Of a DNA stretch of 64,000 bases, positions 3,431-55,769 are shown piece after piece. The number at the start of each line of letters is the position of its first letter. Positions within the stretch are counted from its first letter, which is position 1. The notes beneath the pieces are model-generated. The model was given only the letters and a program-made list of their open reading frames with translations, searched no databases and was not told the DNA's origin. This DNA is from Sabellastarte sp. h YS-2021. Its lineage: Eukaryota; Annelida; Polychaeta; Sabellida; Sabellidae. The position numbers and the translations under genes were made by a program. Where the stretch lies: NCBI GenBank assembly GCA_964017235.1, contig OZ024932.1, positions 81,719,451 to 81,783,450 of the forward strand, read 5' to 3'.

Positions 3431-3559
3431 CACAGCAATCCACAACATCTCAACCTCCACTCCTGGTGTCTAGGAGTGGACAGCTCCAAGAACAAGGCTT
3501 CTCTGTGGAGGTGGCAGAGAGAATTTCTGCCCCTCAGAGGTCATCAACAAGGACCATCT

Positions 3560-28200: not shown

Positions 28201-28736
28201 ACTCATTCACCTACTTTTGGAAGAGCTTTCACACACGAAAATGAAAAATTGTGAATATCTCGGAAAAGCTATTTCTTCCGCTTTAATGCTCGGCGGGAGA
28301 TACACACAGCGGCAGTGGTCTTGACAAAAATTTTTGTCTCCCCAAAAATGGTGGCCATTTTGAATTTTCAAAGTTTTTGCAAAACACAAAAATGCTTATA
28401 TCTCGAAAACCGTGCTATATGGAGCGAACTCAACAAAATTTTGGACCTGCTGGGTATCTCTGCAGAGTAGCCATGCCAATTTTCAAAATATTTTTGTCTC
28501 GCCAAATATAGCGGACATTTTTAATTTTTTTATTTTTTGCAAAACACAAAAATGCTTATATCTTGAAAACCGTGCTAGATAGAGCAGACTGCGCTGACTT
28601 TGGTTGCCACAACAGTATAAGGCTAGAAACGAAGCATTTTCTTAATACTTTAACACTCACCTTTATATCCTTTTCGGGACGCTTTGTTTTTGCTATACAA
28701 AACATTATCTTTTTTTTTTGCGAGCGATCCTCTAGT
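25209..28736 (+). mobile_element. Helentron-like element with 135-bp and 169-bp arrays, nested
   Basis: The 5' end has the palindrome GTCAGCTGAC and the hairpin GCGTCCC-GCAA-GGGACGC. A GC-rich head (GGCTCCGCC repeats) and a head block with TTCAAATTTGGCAGGTTTAG follow. Then come about four 169-bp units, about fifteen 135-bp units, and about two more 169-bp-type units. Near the 3' end CGGGACGCTT (28675-28684) is the inverse of the 5' AAGCGTCCCG, and the element ends TTGCGAGCGATCCTCTAG followed by T. Asymmetric terminal inverted repeats, a hairpin-like 3' end and CTAG-T suggest a non-autonomous Helitron2/Helentron. It carries no transposase and is inserted in a palindromic repeat (see 62744-63260). 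Confidence 0.8.
26230..28230. repeat. 135-bp tandem array, about 15 units
   Basis: The period is about 133-135 bp. Each unit has TACTCA-AAA-TGAGTA (a 6-bp-stem hairpin), TATTGCAGATAGCC, CATTCACCTACTTTTGGGAG and a CTTTCAC-TTG-GTGAAG inverted repeat. Central units are nearly identical, so the array has been homogenised recently; edge units are more diverged. There are no spacers, so it is not a CRISPR array. Confidence 0.95.
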
Positions 28737-31790: not shown

Positions 31791-34499
31791 TTATGTCGTC
31801 TCTCTGCGGCGTGGGCGTACGCGTATGCGTCCGCGTGAACGTCTTCTCCTCCAAAGCTACAAGGCCTAGAGACATGCTGTTTTTTTAAAAGATACCTTAT
31901 CTATCGAGGATGAAAAATTGTTCAAGGCATGCAAATCTGTCTGTTTGTCTGTTTGCTAGAGACATTATAAGGGAGGTACCCCCACCAAAAGTGTGAAAAT
32001 TTCAACACTTTATCACAATTTTCTCAGTGACTATTGCAGGGATTTCTCTCATATCTTGCATATATGTACTAGGCCAGAGGTAGATTCTCTTGTGTGAGTG
32101 TGAGACCTGGATCTGTCTTAGTTTTTTTTTAATAAATTTTTTTAATAATTTTTAATGCATTAAAATTCATGAAATCATGCACTAAATCACTTATAACTTG
32201 AAAAGTGTTGCATTTAGAGCATTTTGTTAAAATATGTTATTCAGCTACTTTTTTTAGAGCTACAACATGGTGAGTAACTTGGGTGTCTATCTCAATAGCT
32301 AAGTGAGTAATAGCTACTTTTGGGCTTTTCAGTAACTTCCATCATGAGTAAAATCACTTGTAACTTGAAAACTATTGCATTTAGAGAATTTCGTATAATT
32401 ATGTTATTCAGCTACTTTTGGGTCAGCTATAACATAGTAAAATTTCAGACCTGTAGCTCATGGCATAGCTGAGTAATAGCTACTTTTAGGTTATCACTGT
32501 TGAGTAAATCACTTATAACTTGAAAACTATTGCATTTAGAGTATTTTGTTTTAATATGTTATTCCCCTATTTTGGGGTCAGCTAAAACATAGTGAAGTTC
32601 CACACCTGTGGATCATTGCATAGCTGAGTAATAGCTACTTTGAAGTTCTCACTGTTGAGTAAATCAGTTGCAATTAGAAAACTATTGCATTTACAGAAAT
32701 TTGTGTAAATATGTTATTCAGCTACTTTTGGGTCAGCTATAACATAGTGAAATTACAGACCTGTAGTTCATGGCACAACTGAGCAATAGCTATTTCCAGG
32801 TACTGTATGTTGAGTAAATCAGTTGTAACTTGAAAAATATTGCATTTGGAGTATTTTGTTAAAATATGTTGTTCACCTACTTTTGGGTCAGCTATAACAT
32901 AGTGAAATTACAGACCTGTAGCTCATGGCACAACTGAGCAATAGCTATTTTCAGGTACTGACTGTTGAGTAAATCAGTTGTAACTTGAACAATATTGCAT
33001 TTGGAGTATTTTGTTAAAATATGTTGTTCACCTACTTTTGGGTCAGCTATAACATAGTGAAATTACAGACCCATAACTCATGGCATAGCTGAGCAATAGC
33101 TATTTTCAGGTTCTCACTATTGAGTAAATCAGTTGTAACTTGAAAACTATTGCATTTACAGTATTTTGCTTAAATATGTTGTTCACCTACTTTTGGGTCA
33201 GCTATAACATAGTAAAAATTCAGACATGTAGCTCATTGCATAGCTGAGTAATAGCTACTTTGAGGTTATCACTATTGAGTAAATCAGTTGTAACTTGAAA
33301 ACTATTGCATTTAGAGTATTTTGTTTAAATATGTTATTCACGTAATTTTTGGTCAGCTATAACATAGTGAAATTGCAGACCTGTATGTCATGGCATAGCT
33401 GAACAATAGCTACTTTCAGGTTCTCACTGTTGAGTAAATCATTGTATCCACTGTATAGCCGCAGTGTGTAGAAAGATTTCACCATTACTGCTCTAATGAA
33501 AAAAAAAATATTATAGCTACCCTTCTCAAGTTTGCAGGATATATTAACAACCATAAAATGTTGCCTGGGAATATTTTTGGCCTCATTTTGAAAAACAAGA
33601 TGGTCACCACAGGTGTTTCTTTGTCAGTCATGAAAAGTGCTTATATCTCTCTTATTATTGGTCCTAGAGGTTTGGGATGGTAAACCAACCTGTAGGAAAT
33701 CATGGGCTGTGAATCTTTTGGTGTGGTCAGATTTGACCTTTGATTTGACCTTTGGCTCCTTCAAGGTCAAACAAGGATAGCCAAACTTGAAAGTGCTTAT
33801 AACTCGCTTATTATTGGTCCTACAGGTTTGGGATGGTAAACAGTCATATAGGAAATCATGGGCTTGGATTATTTTGGTGTGGTCAGATTTGACCTTGGAC
33901 TCCTCCTTCAAGGTCAATTGAGGATAGCCAAACTTAAAAGTGCTTATAACTCGCTTATTAATGGTCCTAGAAGCTTGGGATGGTAAACCAACATATAGGA
34001 AATCATGGGCTGGGATTCTTTTGGTGTGGTCAGATTTGACCTTTGGACCCCTCCTTCTAGGTCAAATGAGGACAGCCAAGCTTAAAAGTGCTTACAACTC
34101 GCTTATTATTGGTCCTAGAGGTTTGGGATGGTTAACCAACCTATAGGAAATCATGGGCTGGGAATGTTTTTGTGTGGTTGGATTTGACCTTGGACCCCTT
34201 CTTCAAGGTGGAACGAGGATATTGCATTTGCAGTATTTCTTTAAATATGTTTTAACCTACTTTTTACACTTAAACAGTTACCTTGTTACTTTCCTTCATA
34301 ATACCATTTGCAGGGCACAACTTTCTTGTCCTTTTCTTCTGTCAGCTTCGGAATTTCTTTCCAACATGCTGTTCAGTTACCATTTACTGTACTTCTGTAC
34401 AGCACTTTCCCTGATAATTATGCATTCCTCTCATTATCACCTTCACAAATCAAAAACACTAAGCTGACACAGTGCCCGTTCACGGGCACTCTCCTCTTG
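31791..34499 (+). mobile_element. Tandem-repeat element, 155-bp then 147-bp arrays
   Basis: It starts TTATGTCGTCTCTCTGCGGC with a CpG-rich ACGCGTATGCGTCCGCGTG stretch. Then comes a ~370-bp head nearly the same as that at 7372 (CAAGGCCTAGAGACATGCTG). About eight 155-bp units follow, then an abrupt change to four 147-bp units (CTTATAACTCGCTTATTATT, GGTTTGGGATGGTAAACCAA, GGAAATCATGGGCTGGGA). The 3' end has a strong hairpin GTGCCCG-TTCA-CGGGCAC, then TCTCCTCTTG. AGCTGACAC just before the hairpin is inverse to the GTCAGCT of the sister copy's 5' end. Helentron-like by plan, with CTTG instead of CTAG. Confidence 0.7.
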
Positions 34500-35767: not shown

Positions 35768-36462
35768 TTATAGTCGTCCCCTGCGCTGCCCATGCGGCGG
35801 CAGTGGGCATAAAACTTGTGGGTGTTCCACAGCCTAAACCCCTGCACGGTTTTTCACCAAATTTTCAAGGTATATTTACCCCAAGAGGATCTAGAGCTGA
35901 TTAGATTTTGGGGGTATCCAGTAACAACTGTTGCCATGGCAACACTTTTAAGATTTTCAAGTCTTAAAGTTTGTGGGTGTTCCACAGACTAAACCCCTGC
36001 ACAGATTTTCCCCAAATTTTCAGGGTATGTTTACCCCAACAGGATCTAAAGCTGATTAAGTTTTTGGGGGGTATCTGGTAACAACTGTTGCCATGATAAT
36101 ACTTTTAGTATTTTTGGGTCTTAAAGTTTGTAGGTGTTCCACAGACTAAACCCCTGCACAGATTTTCACCAAATTTTCAGGGTATGTTTACCCGAAGAGA
36201 ATCTAGAGTTGATTAGGTTTTGGGGGGTATCTGGTAACAACTGTTACCATGGCAACACTTAGATTTTCAAGTCTTAAAGCTTGTGGGTGTTCCACAGCCT
36301 AAACCCCTGCACGGATTTTCACCAAATTTTCAGGATATGTTTACCCCAAGAGGATCTAGAGCTGTTTAGCTTTTTTGGGGGTATCCGGCTACCAGATTTT
36401 CGGGTCCTAAAGTTTGTGGGTGTACCAAAGCCTAAACCCCTGCATGGATTTTTACCAAATTT
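35768..36462 (+). mobile_element. Tandem-repeat element with 156-bp CCATGG units, 5' end and about 4 units
   Basis: The 5' hairpin region CCCCTGC...GGCAGTGGG matches that at 50416. The head GCATAAAACTTGTGGGTGTT leads into units with CCCCTGCACAGATTTTCACC, AAATTTTCAGGGTATGTTTA, AGGATCTAGAGCTGATTAG and GTTGCCATGGCAAC, spaced 156-157 bp. It is cut short where a different array element begins. Confidence 0.75.
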
Positions 36463-37640
36463 CACCCTTAAGGGTTGTCGGGGTATTGTCTTCACCCATG
36501 GTGTCCGGATGGGCAGCGGGAAAAAGTTTGTCAAGGCCTGTATCTCAGAAACTGTAAGGTGTAGGAAGTTGATACTTGGTAGGGACATTGGTTAGGGGGT
36601 GCAGGTGTGCAATGTCATGGTGTGACCTTGATTTGACCTTTGCCTTGCTGTAGTGACCTTGACCTATAAAATCTTGTCTGGGCTATATCTCAGAAACCGT
36701 AAGGTGTAGGAAGTTGATACTTGGTAGGGACATTGATTAGGGGGTATAGGTGTGCAACGTCATGCCGTGACCTTGATTTCACCTTTGACCTTGCCATAAT
36801 GACCTTGACCTATAAAATCTTGTCTGGGCTATATCTCGTATACTGTAAGCTGTAGGAAGTTGATACTTGGTAGGGACATTGGTTAGGGGTTGCAGGTGTG
36901 CAACGTCATGGTGTGACCTTGATTTGACCTTTGAGCTTGCCTTAGTGACCTTGACCTATAAAATCTTGTCCGGGCTATATCTCAGAAAGCCTAAGGTGTA
37001 GGAAGTTGATACTTGGTAGAGACATTGGTTGGGGGTTGTAGGTGTGCATTATCATGATGTGACCTTGATTTGACCTTTGACCTAGCCATAGTGACCTTGA
37101 TTTTGAAAATCTTGTCCGGGCCATATCTCGGAAACCATAAGGTGTAGGAAGTTGATACTTGGTAGGGACATTGGTTAGGGGGTGCAGGTGTGCAACGTCA
37201 TGGTGTGACCTTGATTTGACCTTTGAGCTTGCCGTAGTGACCTTGACCTATAAAATCTTGTCTGGGCCATATCTAGGAAACGGTAAGGTGTAGGAAGTTG
37301 ATACTTGGTAGGGATATTAGTTAGGGGATGTAGGTGTGCATCATCATGATGTGACCTTGATTTGACCTATGACCTTGCAGTTATAACCTTGACCTATAAA
37401 ATCTTGTCTGGGCTGCATCTCAGACACTGTAAGGTGTAGGAAGTTAATACTTAGTAGGCACATTGGTTAAGGGGTGTAGGTGTGCAACATCATGGTGTGA
37501 CCTTGATTTGACCTTTGAGCTTGCTGTAGTGACCTTGACCTATAAAATCTTGTCTGGGCCATATCTCGGAAACTGTACAGTGTAGGAACTTGATAATTGG
37601 TGGGGACATTGCTTAGGGGTTGTAGGTGTGCATCATAGTT
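36463..37640 (+). mobile_element. Tandem-repeat element, regular 146-bp array inserted in the previous element
   Basis: The start has the palindrome ACCCTTAAGGGT then TTGTCGGGGTATTGTCTTCA, similar to the sequence at 61294. Eight units follow with an almost constant 146-bp period: ATATCTCAGAAACCGTAAGG, TGTAGGAAGTTGATACTTGG, TAGGGACATTGGTTAGGGG, TGACCTTGATTTGACCTTTG and GTGACCTTGACCTATAAAAT. No 3' hairpin is recognised. The very even spacing suggests a young array. Confidence 0.75.
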
Positions 37641-37903
37641 TTTAGTTTACTGATTAATGCTGGCATCTTTCTATTGAATTGTCTTGTTTTAATACTTTAT
37701 CATTGCATACATTTTGTTTCTCTTAGATGTTGTTTTCTCTACTTAAACATTTTTTATATCTTAATATAACTGACACTGGTCTGAAAGTATCCCGATCTTT
37801 GTACTGTTTCAGTGTTTCGCTACTTCTATATCTCTATATCACATCTTTAATGCCAAATAGGAGGGTCATCATATCAAAAAGGGCGTATATCTCCCTGGTA
37901 ATT

Positions 37904-40208
37904 GTATCCCCGACGCGAAGTGGGGATACTATGGATTCATCATCGTCGTCGTCCGCGCCCTCGTCCGCGTCCGCGTCCGCAGAGATTTCTTGTTAGCGAC
38001 CTACACTCCAGATTTCTTTCCACATTTCTTTCATATTTGGCGGGTGGCTTGATACGGTAGAGGACTCGCCACCCTATCTTTTTGGTAGGGTTTATGTCTA
38101 AATTAGGCCTGTGGTAGACAAAAATGTCTAAAATGTGGAATATTGCTTGTTAGCGACCTACAGTCCACATTTCTTTCCAGATTTCTTTCATATTTGGCAG
38201 GTGACTTGGTACGCTAGAGGACTCACCACCCTATCTTTTTGGTAGGCTTTATGTCCAAATTAGGCCTGTGGTAGACAGAAATGTCTAAAATGCATTAAAA
38301 TGCATGAAATCATGCACTAAATCACTTATAACTTGAAAAGTGTTGCGTTTAGAGCATTTTGTTAAAATATGTTATTCAGCTACTTTTTTCATAGCTACAA
38401 CATGGTGAGTAACTTGGGTGTCTGTCTCAATAGCTAAGTGAGTAATAGCTACTTTTGGGCTTTTCAGTAACTTCCATCATGAGAAAAATCACTTGTAACT
38501 TGAAAACTATTGCATTTACAGAATTTCGTATAAATATGTTATTCAGCTACTTTTGGGTCAGCTATAACATAGTAAAATTTCGGACCTGTAGCTCATGGCA
38601 TAGCTGAGTAATAGCTACTTTTAGGTTATCACTGTTGAGTAAATTACTTATAACTTCAAAAGTATTTCATTTAGAGTATTTTGTTTCAATATGTTATTCA
38701 CCTATTTTCGAGTCAGCTATAACATAGTGAAGTTCCACACCTGTGGCTCATTGCATAGCTGAGTAATAGCTACTTTGAAGTTCACACTGTTGAGTAAATC
38801 AGCTGTAATTGGAAAACTATTGCATGTACAGAAATTTGTGTAAATATGTTATTCAGCTACTTTTGGGTCAGCTATAACATAGTGAAGTTTCAGACCCGTA
38901 GACAATTACTCGCCTACTCAATATGAGTAAATGCGAGTTATCTCTAAAAGTATTGCAGATAGCCAATTTCTCTCAAATAACTCATTCACCTACTTTTGGA
39001 AGAGCTTTCACATGGTGAAGTTTCACATCCGTAGCCAATTACTCACCTACTCAAAATGAGTAAATGCGACTTATCTCTAAAAGTATTGCAGATAGCCAAT
39101 TTTTCTCAAATAGCTCATTCGCCTACTTTCGGGAGAGCTTTCACATGGTGAAGTTTCAGACCCATAACTAATTACTCACCTACTCAAAATGAGTAAATGT
39201 GAATTATCTCTAAAAGTATTGCAGATAGCCAATTTTTCTGAAATAACTCATTCATCTACTTTTGGGAGAGCTTTCACTTGGTGAAATTTCAGACCCGTAG
39301 ACAATTACTCACCTACTGAAAATGAGTAAATGCGAATTATCTCTAAAAGTATTGCAGATAGCCAATATCTCTCAAATAACTCATTCACCTACTTTTGGAA
39401 GAGCTTTCATATGGTGAAGTTTCAGACCCGTAGCCAATTACTCATCTACTCAAAATGAGTAAATGCGAGTTATCTCTAAAAGTATTGCAGATAGCCAATT
39501 TTTCTCAAATAACTCATTCACCTACTTTCGGGAGAGCTTTCACTTGGTGAAGTTTCAGACTCGTAGCTAATTACTCACCTACTCAAAATGAATAAATGCT
39601 AATTATCTCTAAAAGTATTGCAGATAGCCAATTTTTCTCCAATAACTCATTCACCTACTTTTGGGAGAGCTTTCACTTGGTAAAGTTTCGGATCCGTAGC
39701 TAATTACTCACCTACTCAAAATGAGTAAATGCGAATTATCTCTAAAAGTATTGCAGATAGCCAATTTTTCTCGAATAACTCATTCATCTACTTTTGGGAG
39801 AGCTTTCACATGCTAAAGTTTTTTTATGAATTGTTTAAATAATTTTTAATGCATTAAAATTAATGAAATCATGCACTAAATCAATTATAACTTGAAAAGT
39901 ATTGCATTTAGAGCACTTTGTTAAAATATGTTATTCACCTATTTTTTCCATAGCTACAACATGTTGAGTAACTTGGATGTCCATCTCAATATCTAAGTGA
40001 GTAATGGCTACTTTTGGATTTTTCACTAACTTCCATCATGAGTCAAATCACTTTTAACTTTTGCAATACATACCAGACTAAATAAAACAATATCACAATT
40101 TAGTAAAAAATATTTAATATATTGCATATTGATAAATTAAACTATGTTGCTTGGCCTTTGTCGGTGGATACATCCTGCATCTGTCCACAGATGCGTCCTT
40201 TTTCTAGT
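37904..40208 (+). mobile_element. Helentron-like element with mixed 155/135/155-bp arrays
   Basis: The 5' end is a hairpin GTATCCCC-(10 nt)-GGGGATAC (37904-37911 / 37922-37929). Next are a TCGTCGTCGTCCGCG-type GC-rich stretch and a two-copy ~157-bp head (TTAGCGACCTACA(C/G)TCCA). The array then runs as 155-bp units, about seven 135-bp units, and 155-bp units again. Near the 3' end GTCGGTGGATAC is an imperfect inverse of the 5' GTATCCCCGAC. The hairpin GCATCTG-TCCA-CAGATGC (40177-40194) follows and the end is TTTCTAG, T. A related empty site exists at 51598. It fits a non-autonomous Helitron2/Helentron. Confidence 0.85.
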
Positions 40209-41149: not shown

Positions 41150-42498
41150 TTGATATTTTCAAGGCACAAAAGACAGCAGAACCCAGCACCTGCCCATCCA
41201 GCATCACCATCACCCCCACCCCCAGCACCCAGAAGGAGAAGGAAGCCACAGAATCCATGGGTCCTTCCCTGGATACTCCAGAGAGAGGAGAGAGGTTGCT
41301 ACCGAACACTCCTGGATGAGCTAATCACTACTGACGTACCAGACTATGGAAATTTCACCAGGATGGAGCCAGCATTTTTTATTTGATTGAAGAAAGAATC
41401 ACCCCCCACCTCAGGAAGTCATTCACCAACTTCAGGAAGCCACTGGAAGTCGGAATGAAACTGGCAGTTACTTTGAGACACTTATCCACAGGGGAAAGCT
41501 ACACTTCACTGCAATACCACTGGAGGGTTGAAAGATCGACCATCTGCAAGTTTGTCCCCCAGGTATGCAAAGCCATTTTGAAGGAATTTCAACAAGATTA
41601 TCTGGTGTGCTCCACTAATCCTGAAGACTGGAAGAAAATTGAAGAAAGATTTAGAAACAGATGGAATGTCCCCCATGCAGTCGGTGCATTAGATGGAAAA
41701 CAAATTGCTATCAAGAAGCCCAAGAAGTCAGGCAGTGGATATTTCAACTACAAGGGCTACTTCTCCCTGGTACTTTTGGCTTTAGTCGATGCAGATTACA
41801 AGTTCCTGTGGGTCAACGCGGGGGCCAGTGGGTCATCATCTGATGCACAGATTTTCAACCGCAGCAAACTGAAAAGAAGAATTGAGAATGGAACCATGGG
41901 ACTACCACCACCTGAACCACTTGGACCTGGGGGGCCAGATCTACATTACTTCTTGCTGGGGGACGACGCCTTTGCCCTGATGCCTTGGCTGGTCAAGCCT
42001 TACAGTAGACGTCAACTGACCAGAGAAGAGAGAATAGCTAACTACAGGATATCCAGGGGGAGGAGGGTGGTCGAGAACTCATTTGGTGTACTTGTCAAGA
42101 GATTCAGGGTGCTGTTGACCACCATGGAACAGAGGCCAAAAGTAGTCAGAGACATTGTGTTAACATGTGTGGTACTACAGAACATGTTAAGAAGCCATCA
42201 GGGGGGAGCAGACAGACCACCCACTCCAGCTGACAACATACAACCACCACAGGGGGACCAGGGGAAACAGAGACATCAAGAGAACTTCAGAAACCCATTG
42301 AGGGAGGCCAAACATCGAGACCTACTGAAAGACTACTTCAATCACGTGGGGCGCTGGCTGGGCAGGAGGACAGAGTTTAAGAAGACTGAGGGCAGAAGAC
42401 TGAGGGGGAGAAGATGCTGTCATATATCAGTCCTTTTCAGGACTACCCAAATAATCCAAGAACTTTTATTTAGCAAAGTGTTGCCTCCCCAAAAATAA
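41150..42498 (+). CDS. HARBI1-like (PIF/Harbinger, DDE_4) transposase with one frame break
   Basis: The main frame (41383-42498, 371 residues) has a helix-turn-helix-like segment (TSLQYHWRVERSTICKFVPQ). The catalytic triad follows: Asp104 in GALDGK, Asp194 in LLGDDAFAL and Glu231 in RRVVENSFG, so D-37-E spacing as usual. The conserved family N-terminus (Arg-rich stretch, WVLPWILQ, YRTLLDEL, NFTRMEPAFF) is encoded just upstream in a different frame, ending at 41386. The switch falls in a run of six T near 41375-41380; a one-base change there would explain it, and a sequencing slip is also possible. No convincing ATG precedes the upstream part, so the true start or a first exon is unclear. Cut-and-paste transposase acting on the surrounding TIRs. 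Confidence 0.88.
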
Positions 42499-43047: not shown

Positions 43048-45144
43048 ATGTCTTCTCCGGGCCAGAAGCATGGTAGCTGTGGCCATATCATGGCTAGTTT
43101 TGACAGCCATTGTTTCTGCGCACGTTGCAGAGAGAAGGGAAAAGGTACAGACCCCTGTATTAACCATAATGATTGCCAGGCCTGTAATTCTTTGACTGAG
43201 GAACAACGCGTTCAGTTGTCTACCCCCAGTTATCGATTAAAGAAGGAAAAGCGTGACTTAAAGAAGTCTTCTGATACTCCCATCAAGGAATCTGACAGTT
43301 CCACCCTCATCGACCCGTCCTCTGTGACAGTAGTGGGGGCTGTGGACGGCCAGGGGATGACTCAGTCTCCTGGTTCAGGTTTATCTACAAAAAAGAAGAA
43401 GTCTACATCTACTGAGAAGAAAGTTTCCTCTTCTAAACATGCTAAGTCTTCAGAGAAGCCGGTTAAGTCGCCTACCCCTCACAGATCCTCAGCTGACGCA
43501 AGGATTGATGAGCTGGACCAGAAATGGTCCGATAGGTTTAACAGACTGGAGGCTATCTTGCTTGCAAAGACTGTGGATAATGAACCGACCTTCTCAACTG
43601 TTAAAGTAGCTCCCACTACATCAGCTCCGGCTGGTATCTCCAAGTCAACGGAACCCTTCATCCGACCATCAGATACTGTTCAGACTTCAGATTTGGCCGG
43701 TAGCCACAACTCCCCTCAGAGTCAGGCCACCAACAAGTCGCTTTCTTACGCTTCTGATAGCCAACGCCCATCTACCTCAGATTTGCATGGTGTATCTCAG
43801 ACTGCTTGCAGAGCTCAGTCGACCAGTAAGTCGCGTAAGGAGAAATCTGTCACCGACCGACCCTCAGACCTTGCTGGTACCGACCCACCACCCTTTCAAC
43901 AGGTTTCCAGCAGGTCGTCCTCAGCACTGACCGGCCGACAAAGCCCACTGGCTATGGATACTGATTCCGACTCTGATTTCTCTGATCAACCGCCAGTGGA
44001 CCTCTTTGTTGAAGAAGGGGAGTTGTCCGACCAAGACCCGGATGCTGTTTCTGCCGACCCCGACCAGACCCTCTCAGAGGACCAGAACTATAGAGAAACT
44101 ATGAGAGGGATCAGGTCCTACATGGGGTGGTCGCATATACCTGATATGGACATAACGGCTGCTACATCCGACGACAACCCTTTTGCTGGTCCACAGTCAC
44201 AGCCTACAGGAAAGGTCCCCATTAAAATGCCAACCGACGAGTGGTTGTGCAAGAAAATGGGAAAGCTAAACCTGACTCTAGTGGAGGGTTACCCCTCATG
44301 TAGCTCAGAAGCGGGAGGTCTGTTAAAGGACCAGTTTGTTAAGCCGGCACGTTCACAGGCAAAATGGTACGGCTTTGTATCTGATCAACAGAAAAGTGAC
44401 ACTGGTACTGAGAAAACTGTTACCTCTTGGAATACAGACGCCTGTAAGGTCAACAGTACTTATAGCCGTATTGCTAAGGCAGCAGGTGTGTCCTCTACAC
44501 CACCAGCCTCCCGACAAATCTCTCAGGACAACCTAAGACGTTGGGAAAAGTCGGCAAGGGAAGCTTCCACCGTATGTAACCAGGCTGCTGGCTTCAACCG
44601 GTGTTTGTACAGAGTTCAGGATAACATGAAAACACAGTTAAAGATCATCAAGACGGACATGGCCAAAGGGAAGTCGTCCTCCAAAGCAGCTGGCGCAGCC
44701 GACGAGCTGCAATTTTTTATGAACTTTAATGCTAGTATTACCCAGGCCATGGCAAAGACTCTGGAGCATCTGAGTGACTTTGTTTTTGTGACAGTGGCCA
44801 ATACGACCTTGACTCGCAGAGACTCTTATTTGTCGCATCTCAAAGCTGGTATCAAACCAGACACCCTAGCCTCTCTCAGGACCGCACCTCTCCACATTTC
44901 AACACTTTTCCCTGATGAAGCCCTCAGGCAGGCAGAACAGGACATTGCCTCTTTTGAAAGCAAGGGTCAACATCAACCAGGGAAGAAAGGTCGGTTCCAC
45001 CCCTATGATCGTCCTGACAAGCGTGGGGATAACAGAAAACAGGAACGACCAGCATGGAAAAACATTGGACAGGGCAAGAAAGCTAGGGGCAAGGCCTCCT
45101 ACTACTCTTCGAGACCGGCCAAGGGCCAGCAGTCTTACAAATGA
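43048..45144 (+). CDS. Gag-like protein of the young DIRS element
   Basis: 698 residues from an ATG. The N-terminus is Cys/His-rich (SCGHIMASFDSHCFCARC, then CINHNDCQAC), probably a zinc-binding module. A long Ser/Thr/Lys/Asp-rich middle follows, then a more structured part from about residue 390 (KMPTDEWLCKKMGKL, RSQAKWYGFV, NLRRWEKSAREAS), and a basic Gly/Lys/Arg-rich tail suited to nucleic-acid binding. It overlaps the start of the next frame, as is common in DIRS elements. Presumed to form the nucleoprotein particle; no enzyme motif is present. Confidence 0.85.
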   Translation: MSSPGQKHGSCGHIMASFDSHCFCARCREKGKGTDPCINHNDCQACNSLTEEQRVQLSTPSYRLKKEKRDLKKSSDTPIKESDSSTLIDPSSVTVVGAVDGQGMTQSPGSGLSTKKKKSTSTEKKVSSSKHAKSSEKPVKSPTPHRSSADARIDELDQKWSDRFNRLEAILLAKTVDNEPTFSTVKVAPTTSAPAGISKSTEPFIRPSDTVQTSDLAGSHNSPQSQATNKSLSYASDSQRPSTSDLHGVSQTACRAQSTSKSRKEKSVTDRPSDLAGTDPPPFQQVSSRSSSALTGRQSPLAMDTDSDSDFSDQPPVDLFVEEGELSDQDPDAVSADPDQTLSEDQNYRETMRGIRSYMGWSHIPDMDITAATSDDNPFAGPQSQPTGKVPIKMPTDEWLCKKMGKLNLTLVEGYPSCSSEAGGLLKDQFVKPARSQAKWYGFVSDQQKSDTGTEKTVTSWNTDACKVNSTYSRIAKAAGVSSTPPASRQISQDNLRRWEKSAREASTVCNQAAGFNRCLYRVQDNMKTQLKIIKTDMAKGKSSSKAAGAADELQFFMNFNASITQAMAKTLEHLSDFVFVTVANTTLTRRDSYLSHLKAGIKPDTLASLRTAPLHISTLFPDEALRQAEQDIASFESKGQHQPGKKGRFHPYDRPDKRGDNRKQERPAWKNIGQGKKARGKASYYSSRPAKGQQSYK

Positions 45145-47437
45145 CAGTTATTGTGTAAACAGTTTGACAGGTAGACTGCTTGCCGGGAGCACAGTTCACA
45201 GAAAAACAGACACTTTTGTAAACTTAAATGTTGTGCCTCGTGTTCATACTGCGCCCGGGCATTCGCAAAAGAAAGAAATAAGTCCCGGGGCAGCAGTTTG
45301 TTTTTCTCAGAACAATTACAAAATAAAATCTGTGAAACTTGCTTCTTGTGTCACCCCATTATCTTGTGTCAAATCTGTGGTAAATGTCAGAAATGTTGTC
45401 ACAAATCCCCCTGTAGGGACCAGACTTCAAAACTTTTGGCAAGTTTGGCATAACCTGGGGGCCAGCCCCAAAATAGTCCAGATCTTAAAGGAAGGCTACA
45501 CTCTCCCCTTCCAGAACAGGCCCCTACTGTCAAGGCACCCTACGGTCATAAGCCGTTATGTGAACCGCCACAGGAACAGCTACCTGTCGGAGGCTTTGCA
45601 TCAGCTTATTTCCAAAAATGCAGTCGAACGGGTGCAAAATCCAAAATCTCTAGGGTTTTTCAACAGACTTTTCCTAGTGCCAAAACCCAACAACAAATGG
45701 AGACCCATTCTAGACCTAAGCAAACTGAATCTTTTTCTCGGGGTGGAGAAATTCAAAATGGAAACACCGGAAACCATCAGAACTTCCCTGCAACAGGGGG
45801 AATGGGTCACCTCAATAGACTTCAAAGACGCCTACTTCCACATACCAATACAGGAACAATCCAGAAAATTTCTGAGATTTCACGCCCAAGGTCAGACATA
45901 CCAATTCAAGGCCCTGCCCTTTGGTCTGTCCACAGCACCCTTGGAGTTCACAGTGGTAGCCAAGGAAGTCAAGCTAATGGCCATACACAAGGGTATAAGG
46001 ATCCACCAGTACCTAGACGACTGGTTGGTGAGAGCCAAGTCCCACCAAGTCTGTCTCCAGCATACCAAGGACCTGCTGAAATTATGCCAAGACCTGGGCT
46101 GGATTGTCAACTTAGACAAATCAGAGCTGGAACCGAAACAAGTCTTTGACTTCGACCAATTCGACCTCAAAGCTGGTCGGGTCCGACCCACACCAGAACG
46201 GTGGCAGAATCTCAAAGCCAAGATTCAAGCTATGCTAGCCCGGCCTTCCTGTCCGGTCCAACAGTTCATGTCCTTGATAGGTCTCCTAACGGCCACAGAA
46301 AAGCAAGTTTATCTAGGCCGACTACACATGAGGCCTATTCAGTGGCACCTGAAAAACAGCTGGAGAGTACCGGAATCACTAGAAAAGGTGATTCCAATAC
46401 CCACTTCTCTTCACCCCCATCTAGAATGGTGGTTAGAAGAAGACAACGTGCTACACAGCCAACCGTTACACCCACTAAAACATGCTCTGCAGATCTTTAC
46501 AGACGCATCAAAAGAAGGGTGGGGCGCTCACTTAAACGAGCACACAGCCAGAGGCGTCTGGTCTCTACCAGAAAGCAGGCTACACATAAATTATCTAGAG
46601 TTGAAGGCAGTCCTTCTAGCTCTAAGGGAGTTTCAGCAACACGTAGCAAACCGAGTAGTCCTTGAAGCTACAGACAACACCACAGTAGTGTCTTACATAA
46701 ACAAGGAAGGCGGCATGAGGTCAGGCCCACTCTGTGCCCAACTGTGGAGAATTTTGACATGGTGTATGGTAAACCAAGTTACCCTCAAAGCCAGGCACAT
46801 TCCAGGCCGGCTGAATGTGGTAGCGGACAAACTTTCCAGACTAGGCCAGATTATTCAAACCGAATGGTCTCTCCTCACAGAGATTTTTCAGACCATATGC
46901 GTCAGGTGGCACCAACCTCAAATAGACCTCTTTGCCACGAGGTTCAACAACAAACTCCCTCAGTTTGTCTCACCAGTACCTGACTCCCTGGCCACTGCAG
47001 TCGATGCACTCAGCCTGCCATGGGAGGATCTGGATGCCTATGCCTTCCCACCAGTAGCCATCTTGGGCAAAGTAGTGCAGAAGCTACTAGACTCCCCAGG
47101 CAACAGGATGATCCTGATTGCTCCAGGTTGGCCCAACATGCCTTGGTTTTGGGACCTAGTGGACATGTCCAGCCAAATCCCATTGAGTCTGCCCAACCTA
47201 CAAAACCTTCTGACACAGCCTTTCAACCAGACCCCTCACAGAAATCTGTCAGGGCTAAATCTCCATGCATGGCTCCTAGAGCCTCAGCAATCAAAGAGCA
47301 GGGCTTCTCTGAGGCAGTGGCGACAAGAATTGAGGCTCCTCAAAGAGGATCCACCAGATCAGTCTATGAGGCAAAGTGGGCCATTTTTACAAAGTGGTGC
47401 CTCACTAATAAGGTGGACTTCGGGGCTCCCCCTGTAA
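44915..47437 (+). CDS. Reverse transcriptase and RNase H of the young DIRS element
   Basis: 840 codons are open; the true start is uncertain because the first ~200 overlap the gag-like frame. RT motifs: LFLVPKPNNKWRPILDLSKL, TSIDFKDAYFHIPI, LPFGLSTAPLEFT and YLDDW. RNase H motifs: QIFTDASKEGWGAHL, LELKAVLLAL, EATDNTTVVSYIN and KARHIPGRLNVVADKLSR. It copies the element RNA to DNA. Translation is probably through overlap or internal initiation, as in related elements. Confidence 0.93.
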   Translation: MKPSGRQNRTLPLLKARVNINQGRKVGSTPMIVLTSVGITENRNDQHGKTLDRARKLGARPPTTLRDRPRASSLTNDSYCVNSLTGRLLAGSTVHRKTDTFVNLNVVPRVHTAPGHSQKKEISPGAAVCFSQNNYKIKSVKLASCVTPLSCVKSVVNVRNVVTNPPVGTRLQNFWQVWHNLGASPKIVQILKEGYTLPFQNRPLLSRHPTVISRYVNRHRNSYLSEALHQLISKNAVERVQNPKSLGFFNRLFLVPKPNNKWRPILDLSKLNLFLGVEKFKMETPETIRTSLQQGEWVTSIDFKDAYFHIPIQEQSRKFLRFHAQGQTYQFKALPFGLSTAPLEFTVVAKEVKLMAIHKGIRIHQYLDDWLVRAKSHQVCLQHTKDLLKLCQDLGWIVNLDKSELEPKQVFDFDQFDLKAGRVRPTPERWQNLKAKIQAMLARPSCPVQQFMSLIGLLTATEKQVYLGRLHMRPIQWHLKNSWRVPESLEKVIPIPTSLHPHLEWWLEEDNVLHSQPLHPLKHALQIFTDASKEGWGAHLNEHTARGVWSLPESRLHINYLELKAVLLALREFQQHVANRVVLEATDNTTVVSYINKEGGMRSGPLCAQLWRILTWCMVNQVTLKARHIPGRLNVVADKLSRLGQIIQTEWSLLTEIFQTICVRWHQPQIDLFATRFNNKLPQFVSPVPDSLATAVDALSLPWEDLDAYAFPPVAILGKVVQKLLDSPGNRMILIAPGWPNMPWFWDLVDMSSQIPLSLPNLQNLLTQPFNQTPHRNLSGLNLHAWLLEPQQSKSRASLRQWRQELRLLKEDPPDQSMRQSGPFLQSGASLIRWTSGLPL

Positions 47438-48320
47438 CCTCAATCGCCGACTTCCTTCTCTATCTTTTTCAAGATAGGAAGTTACAGCCCAGTACCATTG
47501 ATGGGTACAGATCCGCCATTGCTGATAAGCTAGGGAATTCCTCTCTTAACATCAGCAAGGATGAAAATCTCACTCGTCTCCTGGACAGTTTCCACAGAGA
47601 CAGGCCTAAAGGTCGGAGGGGCATTCCTTCTTGGAACCTCTCCCTGGTTTTACACCAATTGACCAAAGCACCTTTTGAGCCTCTTAGAGACTCCTCCTTG
47701 AAGCTTTTGACCTTCAAGACGGTTTTCCTCTTGGCCCTTGCCTTGGGCAAACGTAGAAGTGAGATTCATGCTTGGCAAAACAGGAACATCAGGCACCAGT
47801 CTGACTGGTCAAAAGTCTCCTTGTACCCCTCACCCAGCTTTCTCTCAAAGAACCAGCTGGCCAAGGAAGGTCCAGAGCCCCTACCCTGGACAAATCCCTC
47901 AAGTCTGACAGGTCCTCTGCCCAGTCAGAGCCTTGCGCTACTATTTGGACAGGACCGCAGACCTCAGGCAGAATAAGGAGTTAGTTTTTGTCTCCTTTTA
48001 AGAAAGGGTTTGACAAAGATATCTCCCCTGCCACTATCTCCTCATGGATCAAGCAAACTGTGATCCTATGTTATGAGCTCTCGGTCCAAGAGTCCCACTC
48101 TCTACATCAGGTCAAGGCCCATGATGTCAGAGCCTTTGCCGCTTCTAAAGCCTTCCAATCGGGAGTCTCTCTAGAACAAATTCTGTCAGCTTGCCATTGG
48201 AAGTCGCATAACACCTTCACACAATTCTACTTGAAGGATGTGGCTTGGGCTGACTCAGAGCTCTACCACCTGGGCCCTGTAGTGGCTGCACAGCAGATCC
48301 ACCAACAGCCCAAAATGTAG
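47270..48320 (+). pseudogene. Tyrosine recombinase region of the young DIRS element
   Basis: Family motifs present: DGYRSAIADKLGN, LDSFHRDRPKGRRG, LTKAPFEPL, FLLALALGKRRSEIHAW (first catalytic Arg), KAHDVRAFAASKAFQSG (H-x-x-R box) and SHNTFTQFYL (nucleophile Tyr context). This enzyme integrates the circular DNA copy. The region overlaps the end of the RT/RNase H frame. It is close to whole, with about one break. Confidence 0.88.
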
Positions 48321-50411: not shown

Positions 50412-51413
50412 CTTATAGTCATCCCCTGCGCCGTCTGGGGGGGGGGGGGGGGGGCTTCGGTGGCAGGGGGCATAAAGCTTGTGGGTGATCCACAGCCTAA
50501 ATCCCTAAACAGATTTTCACCAAATTTTCAGGGGATGTTCACCCCAAGAGGATCTAGAGCTGATTAGGTTTAAGGGGGTATCTGGTAACAACTGTTGCCA
50601 TGGCAACAATTTTAAGATTTTTAAGTCTTAAAGTTTGTGGGTGTTCCACAGACTAAACCCCTGCACAGATTTTCACCAAATTTTCAGGGTATGTTTACCT
50701 TAAGAGGATCTAGAGCTGAGTAGGTTTTGGGGGGCGACCCAGTAACAATTGTTGCCATGGCAACACTTTTAAGATTTTTAAGTCTTAAAGTTTGTGGGTG
50801 TTCCAAAGACTAAACCCCTCCACGAATTTTCACCAAATTTTCAGGGTATGTTTACCCCAAGAGGATCTAGAGCTGATTAAGTTGGGGGGGGGGGGGGGGG
50901 GGGGGGGTATCCAGTTACAACTGTTGCCATGGCAACACTTTAAAGATTTTCGGGTCTTAAAGATTGTGGGTGTTTCACAGCCTAAACCCCTGCATGGATT
51001 TTCACCAAATTTTCAGGATCTAGAGCTGAGTAGGTTTTGGGGGGCGATCCGGTAACAATTGTTGCCATGGCAACACTTTTAAGATTTTTAAGTCTCAAAG
51101 TTTGTTGGTGTTCCACAGACTAAACCCCTCCACAAATTTTCAGGATATGTTTACTCCAAGTGGATCTAGAGCTGATTAGGTTTTGAGGGGTATCCAGGTA
51201 GGACTGTTGCTATGGCAACACTTTTAAAATTTTCAGGTCTTAAACTTTGTGGGTGTTCCACTGCCTTAACCGATGCATGGATTTTCACCAAATTTTCAGG
51301 CTATGTTTACCCCAAGAGGATCTACAGCTGATTAGGTTTTGGGGGGTATCCAGTGGCAACTGTTGCCATGGCAACACTTTTAAAATTTTTGGGTCTTAAA
51401 GTTTGTTCTAAAA
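50412..51413 (+). mobile_element. Tandem-repeat element with 156-bp CCATGG units
   Basis: The 5' stem CCCCTGC...GCAGGGG encloses a G run and leads to GCATAAAGCTTGTGGGTGAT, the same head as at 35768. About six units carry CACAGATTTTCACCAAATTT, AGGATCTAGAGCTGATTAG and GTTGCCATGGCAAC. A second G run of ~24 lies in one unit near 50884. No 3' hairpin is recognised, so it may be truncated. Confidence 0.75.
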
Positions 51414-51539
51414 TCTTTAATGTTTTCTGTAACCTAAAGTATTGCAGCTAGCTTATCAGATTTGCATAAAATGTAAATGGATAAGAAAGCTTGCCTGAGA
51501 GTAATTGTGTCATTATGTTGGAAACAAAATGGTCACCAT

Positions 51540-51790
51540 ATCACATCTTTAATGCCAAATAGGTGGGTCATCATATGAAAAAGGCCGTATATCTCCCTTA
51601 CAATTGTTTCTTGGGCTTCAAAATATGAAAACTACTTCTAAGAGATCATGGCCTGTGAATCTTTTGTAGAAGACTTTGTGGGTTCTCTATACTTCTTACA
51701 ACAGAAGTTGTACCAAATCTCAATGTTGTTGGCCATTTAGCTGTACCTGCTGGCTGGGGTTCTTGCCTGCCGAGGCTGGCTATTTTTGTT
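51540..51790. repeat. Dispersed repeat, uninterrupted copy of the site hit at 37904-40208
   Basis: CACATCTTTAATGCCAAATA, GGCCGTATATCTCCCTTAC, AATTGTTTCTTGGGCTTC and CTGTACCTGCTGGCTGGG run on here without interruption. At 37848-40430 the same order is split by an element between AATTG and TTTCTTGGG. Confidence 0.85.
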
Positions 51791-51794
51791 ATTA

Positions 51795-53274
51795 TGTCCA
51801 CCCACTGGGGGGTGGACATATTATTTTTGCTTTTTCCGCTGTCCGGCGTCTGCCGTCCGGTGTCACACTTGGTTTCCAGACATTTTAGGCAACAGTTGTT
51901 ATCCAATCTTTACCAAATTTGGCATGCAGGTTTATTGGGTTAATAGCTTGTATGGGATTGCTTTTGGTGATGATAGCTCTATAGCTAACTGAGTAATAGC
52001 TACTTTGCTACTTTTGAGTATCTCTTTGGTTTCCAGACATTTTAACAAATGCTATTAAGCCTATCTTTCTGAAATTTGGTATGGAGGTTCATTGGGTTAA
52101 TAGCTTGTATGGGATTGCTTGTATGGGGAATTGCTTCATAGATCAGTGAGTAATTAATTAAATAAATGAGTAATTGGCTATTTTGAGTACTGAAAAAGGC
52201 AAATGTGCTCATATCTCCTAAAACCATGTCAGATAGCGCGATTTCGTCGAAATTTTCGACCCACAGGGTATCTAAGGAACGTAATCTTTGCAATTTTCAA
52301 AAAATTTTCCCCTCCCCAAAAATGGCGGCCATTTTGAATTTTTGAATTTTTCCCAAAAATGGCGAAACTCAAAATTGCTTCTATTTCCTTAACCGTGCGA
52401 GATAGAGCGATTTCGTCGAAATTTTCGACCCACAGGGTATCTAAGACTTGGCAATTTTCAAAAAATTTTCCCCTCCCCAACAATGGCGGCCATTTTGAAT
52501 TTTCGAATTTTCCCCAAAAATGGCAAAACACAAATTTGCTTCTATCTCCTTAACCGTGTGAGATAGAGCGATTTCATAATGTACTCTTTGCAATTTTCAA
52601 AAATTTTCCTCTTCCCACATATGGCGGCCATTTTGAATTTTCGAATTCAAAATTGATTCTATCTCCTTAACCGTGCGAGATAGAGCGATTTCGTCGAAAT
52701 TTTCGACCCACAGGGTATCTAAGAAATGTACTCTTGGCAATTTTCAAAAAAAATTTCCCTCCCCACATATGGCAGCCATTTTGAATTTTCGAATTTTTGC
52801 CCAAAATGGAAAAACACAAATTTGCTTCTATCTCCTTAACCGTGCAAAATACAGTATTTCGTTGAAATTTTCGACCCATAGGGTATCTAAGAAATGTACT
52901 CTTGGCAATTTTCAAAAAATTTTCCTCTTCCCAAAAATGGCGGCCATTTTGAATTTTCAAATTTTTGCCAAAAATAGAAAAACAGAAATTTGCTTCTATC
53001 TTCTTAACTGTGTAACATAGAGTGACTTCGTCAAAATTTTCGACCCAACCAATGCAAAAAGGCATGAAGCTGAAATAATTAACATGTACACTAATAAATA
53101 TTTAAGCATCATTGATATATTTTACAAATGAAACAGGGTCTTGTAAGACTACTGTACAATTTTGGCAAAAGGTTCATTGGGTGGACATTACACATGATAA
53201 TGTGTGTTCTTCTGTGCTCTCCTATTTCTATTCATATGTCGCAGCTACTATCAACAGGGCGTCTTATTTCTAGT
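51795..53274 (+). mobile_element. Helentron-like element with 169-bp-family units
   Basis: The 5' hairpin is ATGTCCACCC-(5 nt)-GGGTGGACAT, then a GC-rich CCGTCCGG stretch. A ~147-bp head occurs twice (GGTTTCCAGACATTTTA, AAATTTGGCATGCAGGTTTA, GGGTTAATAGCTTGTATGGG). About five 169-bp-family units follow (CTATCTCCTTAACCGTGCGA, GATTTCGTCGAAATTTTCGA, ATGGCGGCCATTTTGAATTT). Near the 3' end GGGTGGACATTA is the inverse of the 5' motif, followed by the hairpin ACACAT-GATA-ATGTGT, and the end is TTATTTCTAG, T. Non-autonomous. Confidence 0.82.
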
Positions 53275-53302
53275 TGATTGCATCAGAATCAGTGTTTTAA
53301 TT

Positions 53303-55769
53303 AAGCGTCCCTGAAAGGGCGCTTATTTGTTTTCGCCTCAGTTTCCACGCCGCCACCGCCGCCGCCACTGCCGCCGCCGCATTATGGTCTCCCTTGAATA
53401 TCTCCCTTATTATTAGAAGGTTTCAAACCATATTTGGCAGTTATATACCATGGGAAAATTTTTCTGCATGCTTAAATTTGACCTTTATGAAGGTCACATG
53501 ATCAAAAACTATTTTTTGAAGTACACCCCCGTCATCACAGTTCAGGAAAAACTACTTGCTACAGAGCCTTATAATTTGACACACCTGTTCATACTATCGA
53601 AAACGCGAGCTGATTAGATTTTGGGAGCAATCCCTTGAAAAATGTCTCATTTATGAGTGATTTTCTGACACCTTCCAATCTGAATGCCTTAAATTTAGAC
53701 CAACCCCCCTATTATCTTCTTAAGTATTTCATTTAGAGCTATAAAATGTACTGGGAGGTAATAGGAAACCATATGTGGACAGTCTAAATAGCCGGTCAGT
53801 TTTACCCCACGGCCCCCCCTTATGGGTCAAACTGGGGTCATAAAATAGCTGATTTTGAGTTTTTGCCTTATATCTCCTTTATTGTTGCTTTTATAGCTTC
53901 AGAATGTATTAAGAGGTATTGGGAAAGCATATATGGAGAGTCTAAATAGCCGGTCAGTTTTACCCCCCGACCCCCCCTTATAGGTCAAACTGGGGTCATA
54001 AAATAGCCGATTTTGAGTTTTTGCCTTTAGCTCCTTTATTGTTGCTTTTATAGCTTCAGAATATATTAAGAGGTATTGGGAAAGCATATGTGGAGAGTCT
54101 AAATAGCCGGTCAGTTTTACCCTCCTGACCCCCCCTTATGGGTCAAACTGGGGTCATAAAATAGCTGATTTTGAGTTTTTGCCTTTATCTCCTTTATTGT
54201 TGCTTTTATAGCTTCAGAATATATTAAGAGGTATTGGGAAAGCATATGTGGAGAGTGTAAATAACCGGTCAGTTTTACCCCCTGACCCCCCTTATGGGTC
54301 AAACTGGGGTCATAAAATAGCTGATTTTGAGTTTTTGCCTTATATCTCCTTTATTGTTGCTTTTATAGCTTCAGAATGTATTAAGAGGTATTGGGAAAAC
54401 ATATATGGAGAGTCTAAATAGCCGGTCAGTTTTACCCCCCGACCCCCCCTTATGGGTCAAACTGGGGTCATAAAATAGCCGATTTTGAGTTTTTGCCTTT
54501 ATCTCCTTTATTGTTGCTTTTATAGCTTCAGAATATAGTAAGAGGTATTGGGAAAGCATATGTGGAGAGTCTAAATAGCCGGTCAGTTTTACCCCCCGAC
54601 CCCCCCTTATGGGCCAAACTGGGGTCATAAAAAGCTGCTTTGGAGTTTTTGCCTTATATCTCCTTTATTGTTGCTTTTATAGCTTCAGAATGTATTAAGA
54701 GGTATTGGGAAAGCATATGTGGAGAGTTTAAATAGCCGGTTAGTTTTACCCCCCGACCCCCCCCTTATGGGCCAAACTGGGGTCATAAATAGCTGGTTTG
54801 GAGTTTTTGCCTTATATCTCCTTTATCGTTGCTTTTATAGCTTCAGAATGTATTAAGAGGTATTGGGAAAGCATATGTGGAGAATCTAAATAGCTGGTCA
54901 GCTTTATCCCCCGACTCCCCTTTATGGGTCAAACTGGGGTCATAAAATAGTTGCTTTGGAGTTTTGCCTTATATCTCCTTTATTGTTGCTTTTAGACCTT
55001 CAGAATGTATTAAGAGGTATTGGAAAAGCATATGTGGAGAGTCTGAATAGCCGGTCAGTTTTACCCCCCCACCCTCCCTTATGGGCCAAACTGGGGTCAT
55101 AAATAGCTGCTTTGGAGTTTTTGCCTTATATCTCCTTTATTGTTGCTTTTATAGCTTCAGAATGTATTAAGAGGTATTGGGAAAGCATATGTGGAGAGTT
55201 TAAATAGCCGGTCAGTTTTACCCCCCGACCCCCCCCTTATGGGCCAAACTGGGGTCATAAATAGCTGGTTTGGAGTTTTTGCCTTATATCTCCTTTATCG
55301 TTGCTTTTATAGCTTCAGAATGTATTAAGAGGTATTGGGAAAGCATATGTGGAGAATCTAAATAGCCGGTCAGCTGTATCCCCCGACTCCCCTTTATGGG
55401 TCAAACTGGGGTCATAAAATAGTTGCTTTGGAGTTTTGCCTTATATCTCCTTTATTGTTGCTTTTAGACCTTCAGAATGTATTAAGAGGTATTGGAAAAG
55501 CATATGTGGAGAGTCTAAATAGCCGGTCAGTTTTACCCCCCCACCCTCCCTTATGGGCCAAACTGGGGTCATAAATAGCTGCTTTGGAGTTTTTGCCTTA
55601 TATCTCCTTTATTGTTGCTTTTATAGCTTCAGAATGTATTAAGAGGTATTGGGAAAGCATACGGTGTAGCTTTGTGCATTCTTAGCTTTACAGCATGCTT
55701 ATTAAAACCACAAAGCATTTTAAACTTTAAGGGACGTTTCGCTTTTGTGAGCAAAAGCATTCCTCTAGT
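53303..55769 (+). mobile_element. Helentron-like element with a 157-bp array
   Basis: The 5' hairpin is AAGCGTCC-CTGAAA-GGGCGCTT, then a GCCGCC repeat stretch and a head with CATATTTGGCAGTTATATAC. About twelve 157-bp units follow: GCCGGTCAGTTTTACCCCC, AAACTGGGGTCATAAAATAG, TTATATCTCCTTTATTGTTG and TATTAAGAGGTATTGGGAAA. Near the 3' end GGGACG (55731) echoes the inverse of the 5' GCGTCCC. The hairpin GCTTTTG-TGAG-CAAAAGC follows and the end is ATTCCTCTAG, T. It starts only about 30 bases after the end of the preceding element. Confidence 0.85.
54630..55570. repeat. Higher-order repeat: a ~472-bp trimer present twice
   Basis: Three consecutive variant 157-bp units (including CTTTATCGTTGC, TCCCCCGACTCCCCTTTATG, CTTTTAGACCTTCAG) recur as a block 472 bp later with very few differences. 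For example, CTTTATCG lies at 54821 and at 55293. Confidence 0.85.

Follow-up and report, generated by a model that had tools for sequence, protein, structure and literature searches.

Four repetitive elements in the genome of the sabellid annelid Sabellastarte sp. h YS-2021 are, with a probability of about 0.9, non-autonomous rolling-circle transposons of the Helitron2/Helentron type. They lie on the forward (+) strand of a window of 64,000 bp (GenBank assembly GCA_964017235.1, contig OZ024932.1, positions 81,719,451 to 81,783,450; C6:81719451-81783450 in the 1.79 Gb genome searched) and are named el.1 (37902-40207), el.2 (25225-28735), el.3 (51792-53273) and el.4 (53301-55768). Their ends, their insertion target and empty sites were observed, and the genome holds a coding relative of the same plan, element A, together with its own short derivatives. 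On sequence grounds the class label is kept to 'HINE-like' and not proven HINE, because A has other ends and the arms of the four families were not met on the Rep/helicase (RepHel) loci that were fetched.

A common terminal plan

The layout of the elements is 5′-TT, a hairpin arm, a left module with a microsatellite, one or more satellite-like arrays, an inverted copy of the arm, a stem-loop (clear in two elements) and CTAG-3′. DNA folds of the element ends were scored as z values against 200 shuffles. The 5′ hairpins are at 37904-37929 in el.1 (z −3.9), 25227-25248 in el.2 (z −4.3), 51794-51819 in el.3 (arm ATGTCCACCC; −10.9 kcal/mol, z −5.3) and 53303-53324 in el.4 (arm AAGCGTCCC; z −5.1), and at most one shuffle in 200 folded equally well. 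The subterminal inverted repeat (subTIR) arms are 9-11 bases long and lie near both ends, the 5′ arm having an inverted partner. In all four elements the 5′ arm forms the hairpin 0-2 bp from the end, and all four carry the inverted 3′ copy and end in CTAG followed by T. The 3′ copies are GTCGGTGGATAC in el.1 (40160-40171, with one indel relative to the 5′ arm), CGGGACGCTT in el.2 (28675-28684), GGGTGGACAT in el.3 (53179-53188) and, in el.4 (55731-55739), GGGACGTTT in the window, one change from the genome copies. The window copy of el.4 thus reads GGGACG only, while all eight el.4-type 3′ ends listed read GGGACGCTT, of which GGGACG was required by the search pattern itself. The distance from the 3′ arm to the end is 29 bases in el.4, 36 in el.1, 51 in el.2 and 85 in el.3, compared with about 20-30 bp as the criterion for Helitron2.

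These data bear out the original prediction that four elements share one terminal plan, which had been compared with Helitron2/Helentron elements for its asymmetric terminal inverted repeats and CTAG-T ends and with bivalve 'pearl' elements for its tandem cores; that placement is retained, the oyster Cg_HINE elements being of the same description. Some details were revised. The start of el.2 had been put at 25209 and its hairpin begins at 25227, preceded by TT at 25225; the hairpin of el.3 begins at 51794. A clear 3′ stem-loop had been claimed for three elements and is present in el.1 (40177-40194, z −2.8) and el.4 (55741-55758, z −2.3), but does not go beyond shuffles in el.2 (z −1.4) or el.3 (z −0.5), where a 6-bp stem at 53190-53205 occurs in the predicted fold.

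Judged from the window alone, the plan hardly exceeds chance. A strict scan (exact 10-base arm, 7-base hairpin, CTAGTT or CTTGTT) gave four hits, where 100 Markov sequences gave 0.63 on average and at most 4. Among the four elements only el.2 and el.3 were hit. The case for the plan is therefore carried by the genome copies. A looser scan with an 8-base arm (66 rows; mean 29.8 and maximum 49 in 30 controls) was not used, some of its minus-strand rows being artefacts.

Genome copies and the insertion target

Match lists comprise the best 40 scored of each candidate set, and candidate totals are not confirmed copy numbers; L-numbers denote the genome loci fetched around matches. As had been proposed as a check, copies stop at both predicted ends for el.1, el.3 and el.4, and at the 3′ end for el.2. 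A flank-free query with el.3 gave 51 matches (best 40 of 5736 candidates scored), six places including the window being matched end to end at 90-100%. The copies (L002-L006, L008) have both ends in common, TT-ATGTCCACCC at the 5′ end and CTAG followed by TT at the 3′ end (located in 7/8 loci), and their flanks are unrelated; in the window the CTAG of el.3 is at 53270-53273 and is followed by TT. The 5′ end of el.4, which lies 27 bp downstream of el.3, was found by pattern in 26 of 30 fetched loci, the window being one of them (best 40 of 2476 candidates scored), and 39/39 non-self 3′ matches end 2-24 bases past CTAG (55765-55768 in the window, then TT; best 40 of 689 scored). For el.1, 35 of 40 5′ matches start 3-9 bases ahead of the hairpin and none starts inside it (best 40 of 2497); the remaining five, namely the window itself, two composites and two longer matches, start further out. 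The 5′ lists of el.4 and el.1 are biased, as the query contained flank and only best-scored rows were listed, and the el.4 5′ flanks (T at −5 in 26/26) were set aside as target evidence for this reason. Two el.1 copies of 3017 and 3013 bases, L103/L105 and L104/L106, were read end to end; their last 70 bases are 93-94% identical to el.1 and close with CTAG followed by TT. In el.2, 39/39 non-self 3′ matches end 3-15 bases past CTAG (best 40 of 260 scored); the putative 5′ end is based on the hairpin and on the left module of el.4, genome copies covering the 3′ end only.

TT directly follows CTAG in 25/25 rows, corresponding to 23/23 distinct places (three rows are one el.3 locus). Of 26 places, 25 have A before the 5′ T-run of el.3 and the remaining one has G; a further locus of the 27 tried, L078, was missed by the pattern and has A by eye. 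The T-run is two bases long in 24 places and three in two. With TT counted as part of the element, el.1, el.3 and el.4 are inserted at A^TT without duplication.

A canonical Helitron1, with its CTRR end and A^T target, would account for part of this, as CTAG fits CTRR and A^TT contains A^T; the data of the four elements agree with both, with G before TT in the window copy of el.2. The 5′ end of all four elements is, however, TT with a hairpin instead of the TC without a hairpin of Helitron1, which has no 5′ hairpin in the account of PMC3627910 (excerpts of this and of the other papers cited were available), and subterminal inverted copies are present. This explanation is highly improbable.

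Empty sites

Joined flanks were tried locally for 17 insertions and three of them (window el.1, L006 and L015) have relatives that span the junction. The repeat into which el.1 is inserted has an uninterrupted copy at window positions 51538-51717 (89.6% over 182 bp). For the el.3 copy in L006, uninterrupted relatives occur both in L006 and in L015. L006 also contains an uninterrupted relative for the el.4 copy in L015, where one extra base remains. The el.1 copy L104/L106 lies within a 133-bp core, and its flanks, joined after removal of the 5′ TT, equal window positions 26637-26706 within el.2 in 70/70 bases. In these four insertions (el.1 twice, el.3 and el.4) the original length is restored if the element is taken as TT...CTAG. 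El.2 yielded no empty site. Six other places contain the composite of host repeat and el.1, with the el.1 3′ end beside the same flank (84-93%); two of them also have the 5′ junction (89%), and one further place has the el.1 3′ end at 97% without the host-repeat flank.

Satellite arrays spread by recombination or as circles, with the 'ends' being conserved edges, could be proposed instead, since the monomers of 130-170 bp are satellite-like and array length varies among copies of one family (2.0 compared with 5.0 units). Base-precise insertion is needed to account for both the sharp ends at unrelated sites and the empty sites, of which one is exact over 70 bases. In its simple form this proposal is refuted by the empty sites, and it has very little probability overall; recombination may alter array length.

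A coding Helentron with the same plan

Searches of the genome with the Pfam Helitron_like_N profile gave 24 matches from 36 candidates, of which L042, L044, L045 and L047 are near-identical by eye. The element around L045 (element A) encodes Helitron_like_N (PF14214, 1.2e-25), DUF6570, a PIF1 helicase (2.9e-28) and Exo_endo_phos (5.1e-5; 23.6 bits, slightly below the curated Pfam cut-off of 24.5). The coding region was read on two overlapping loci, the frames agreeing by coordinates, and includes an open frame of 2245 amino acids. At the 3′ side copies L063, L065 and L066 diverge after GACCCTCTTG, and at the 5′ side L067 and L068 diverge before the arm, giving a length of about 12.3 kb between the divergence points. 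The 5′ arm, GGCGGGTTGCG in L068 and five derivatives (the outer arm of L045 has one change), folds with z −4.0, and its inverse copy, CGCAACCCGCC, is 25 bases from the 3′ end. The left part combines a microsatellite (GTCC/GTCT) with a tandem array of about 168 bp, and a further 5′ end lies inside the element there. Judged by its predicted domains, A is a Helentron as defined in the available parts of PMC4067079, where Rep, PIF1 helicase and a C-terminal endonuclease are combined in one element. It carries the plan of el.1-el.4, the core included, on a RepHel-endonuclease element.

Short derivatives of A are present. Among the 40 best-scored matches to its 3′ 123 bases (1336 candidates), 33 are 100% identical over 123 bases (A included) and seven over 122. 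All five copies fetched, which come from the identical set and are not a random sample, keep the A 5′ hairpin and the array, and 0/5 match the RepHel region. Three have one common junction, in which the internal 5′ end of A is fused to its last 162 bases via TTAG, and L100 and L098 have two other junctions. The derivatives are 593, 769, 1085 and 1396 bases long; L098 measures 1888 from the internal 5′ end and is hence longer.

Two successive 5′ ends were seen inside one A element, at about 2387 and about 2987 in L067 and at 745 and 1505 in L100. They resemble tandem Helitrons whose inner copy is without a 3′ end, and the inner one is the place of the junction in the three short derivatives. 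The el.4-like sequence that adjoins A in L067/L063 was not accepted as a connection between the families, being an old element that A entered.

Miniature inverted-repeat transposable elements of a cut-and-paste (DDE) transposon, as the bivalve pearl elements were once called, would also have inverted arms close to both ends. Formally, the TT could be a 2-bp duplication, and a Harbinger-like open reading frame, named by eye, is present in the window at 41383. The arms are nevertheless placed asymmetrically, 2 bases in from the 5′ end and 29-85 in from the 3′ end, and the 5′ arm forms a hairpin of its own. All four elements close with CTAG, and the RepHel element A bears the same plan, so that this origin is very unlikely. 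No el.1-el.4 ends were seen on another kind of transposase in the sequence fetched, no systematic search having been made.

Other points weigh against the assignment to the Helitron2/Helentron type. In el.2, el.3 and A (z −1.1) the 3′ tail folds no better than shuffles. The 3′ end of A is CTTG instead of CTAG; of L063, L066 and L065, two have TT next to it and one has TA. On the 5′ side A is flanked by a T-run. TT as part of the element and TT as a 2-bp duplication are indistinguishable, and 'no target site duplication' is therefore a convention. The similarity of the left modules is not significant in five of ten family pairs. No RepHel element with el.1-el.4 ends was found among the 24 Rep matches, the downstream stretches of seven and one extension, and ends were determined for A only. 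The autonomous partner that was to be looked for under the original prediction was obtained for a fifth family, A, and for none of el.1-el.4. As short exact strings, the arms of the four families are absent from L039-L075 as fetched, most RepHel ends lying beyond the fetched sequence.

In L071 a decayed el.1-type monomer follows the endonuclease; surrounded by other repeats, it was rejected as a link to a partner. By eye, L069/L070, L071, L072 and L075 represent at least three additional RepHel lineages whose tail is endonuclease-like.

Cores and left modules

The cores had been described as unrelated-looking, and each family was thought to pair its own ends with a different core; neither description is borne out. 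Tandem arrays were located with Tandem Repeats Finder. The 133-bp core of el.1 (38851-39821) is common to el.2 (26229-28232), with 84.3% identity over 1325 bp, and the el.3 core (52212-53047; units of 161-168 bp, type b) is 73.0% identical to that of el.2 over 588 bp. Comparison of the el.4 core (53755-55661; 157-bp units) with 14 other modules of the window and of A gave no match at E 1e-6. El.2 and el.4 have the 5′ arm and left module in common, the left module of el.4 containing a CGC-rich microsatellite at 53348-53378. From these shared cores and this shared left end, el.2 is, on the alignments, a mosaic of an el.4-type left end, an el.3-type core, an el.1-type core and its own right end.

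With the microsatellite excluded, el.2/el.4 is the only one of ten left-module pairs to exceed all shuffles (0/1000 as good); uncorrected counts per 1000 are 4 for el.3/A, 5 for el.2/A, 14 for el.1/el.2 and 37 for el.2/el.3. The last 60 bases of el.1-el.4 are 48-65% identical, under the 80% subfamily rule. The block CA[AT]ATTTGGC occurs shortly past the microsatellite in all four left modules and in a weaker form in A; it is possible that it represents a remnant of one ancestral left module.

Insertions nested in cores are single cases, the el.1 copy L104 in a 133-bp core and A in an el.4-like core. By eye, el.3 lies in an A-type unit in L092 and el.4 in 147- and 146-bp units in L027/L031.

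Other features of the window

At 13432-14512 a right module of el.2 type comes after the 133-bp core, and the CTAG/TT junction is at 14512; no upstream 5′ end was seen and the element is probably truncated. Another 3′ end of like plan (GGGACACTT, CTCTAG/TTTT) is at 21600-21674 and is 76% identical to the last 60 bases of el.2. Further arrays with units of 146-157 bp are at 7803-8490, 32345-33446, 33633-34221, 35816-36385, 36541-37632 and 50473-51406, those at 35816 and 50473 being 86% alike over 549 bp; they are perhaps cores of more such elements. By eye, the frames at 43048-47976 and, in a second, partial case, at 1981-3561 are like those of DIRS-type retrotransposons (reverse transcriptase/RNase H, tyrosine recombinase), and a 371-amino-acid frame at 41383-42498 is like a Harbinger (HARBI1-type) transposase.

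Relation to known elements

The closest description is that of the 11 Cg_HINE elements of Crassostrea gigas (PMC7492417), some of which combine unrelated arrays with flanks that are related, or have two successive arrays. As far as that account was available, they resemble el.1-el.4 in the 5′ subTIR with an inverted repeat, the microsatellite, the satellite-like array(s), the 3′ subTIR and the palindrome (clear in el.1 and el.4), in a relatedness of flanks and arrays that is not always coupled, and in insertion at T-rich/TT sites without target site duplication. The likeness is one of description, and for the present elements the CTAG ends and the A^TT target are given explicitly. The oyster study could not relate an autonomous Helentron to the Cg_HINE elements, whereas family A has both coding and short members. 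Judged by these features, el.1-el.4 are best filed as new families of HINE-like elements that carry tandem repeats, as Cg_HINE does. A literature search, which did not cover Repbase, found no paper on these families, which does not prove them unpublished. The kind is already known from oysters; new here are the insertion sites and a coding relative in one genome, and the parts worth keeping are the A family and the combination of CTAG with A^TT in an animal.

In the parts of PMC4067079 at hand, Helentrons have subTIRs and a preference for TT, and an 11-bp rule defines families by their arms, to which the 9-11 bases of el.1-el.4 are equal or inferior. The Helentron/HINE/DINE-1 group described there resembles A in having RepHel with an endonuclease, subTIRs and deletion derivatives that keep the ends of the coding element, while el.1-el.4 differ in ending with CTAG and favouring A before TT. 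The same source gives a proto-Helentron of Phytophthora infestans with 5′ TT, 3′ CTAG and A^T. Helitron2, in the excerpts of PMC3627910, shares with el.1-el.4 a hairpin-forming 5′ arm 0-2 bp from the end and a 3′ arm upstream of a hairpin (clear in el.1 and el.4), but has the target TTTT^T/C (Chlamydomonas element), and those excerpts mention no tandem core. FoHeli1 and FoHeli2 of Fusarium oxysporum (PMC5148889) have Helitron2-type ends and insert after TNAT, before T in the legend and before A in the text; TNATT is present at 18/26 el.3 sites by hand count. These elements are fungal, and neither an endonuclease nor a tandem core is mentioned in the parts of that paper available.

Movement and significance

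We infer that a RepHel protein moves el.1-el.4 by way of a single-stranded or circular intermediate. The Rep/helicase of a coding relative would act in trans and nick the element ends, and one strand would be peeled off or copied and then pasted into A^TT. The end signal is probably the pairing between the 5′ arm and the 3′ copy. In the available parts of PMC3627910 such pairing of the two arms is proposed to open the 5′ hairpin and to set the end point. In el.1-el.4 and A the 5′ arm pairs both with its hairpin partner and with the 3′ copy, in four different arm sequences across five families, apart from the indel and the single changes given above. The retention of both pairings fits this model, and is no test of it.

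A wider proposal, that an animal lineage joins Helitron1-like chemistry (CTAG, A^T) to Helentron-like ends and that the satellite cores serve as mutual landing sites, is doubtful. If it were true, monomers bearing AATT would catch new insertions, nested composites would spread, and ends and cores would come to be combined in new ways; far from being idle filler, the satellite core would serve as a target and a platform for exchange.

The available parts of the oyster study (PMC7492417) left open which coding elements move HINEs that carry tandem repeats. Coding and short members of family A occur in a single genome: the Helentron has an array in its left part, and the short derivatives keep that array. 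Since these derivatives keep the array together with the ends, it is suggested that short elements can inherit their satellite core from a coding one rather than capture it later, the order of origin being left aside. The exact insertion sites make the A^TT target rule testable and show how satellite-like DNA gets scattered in a genome.

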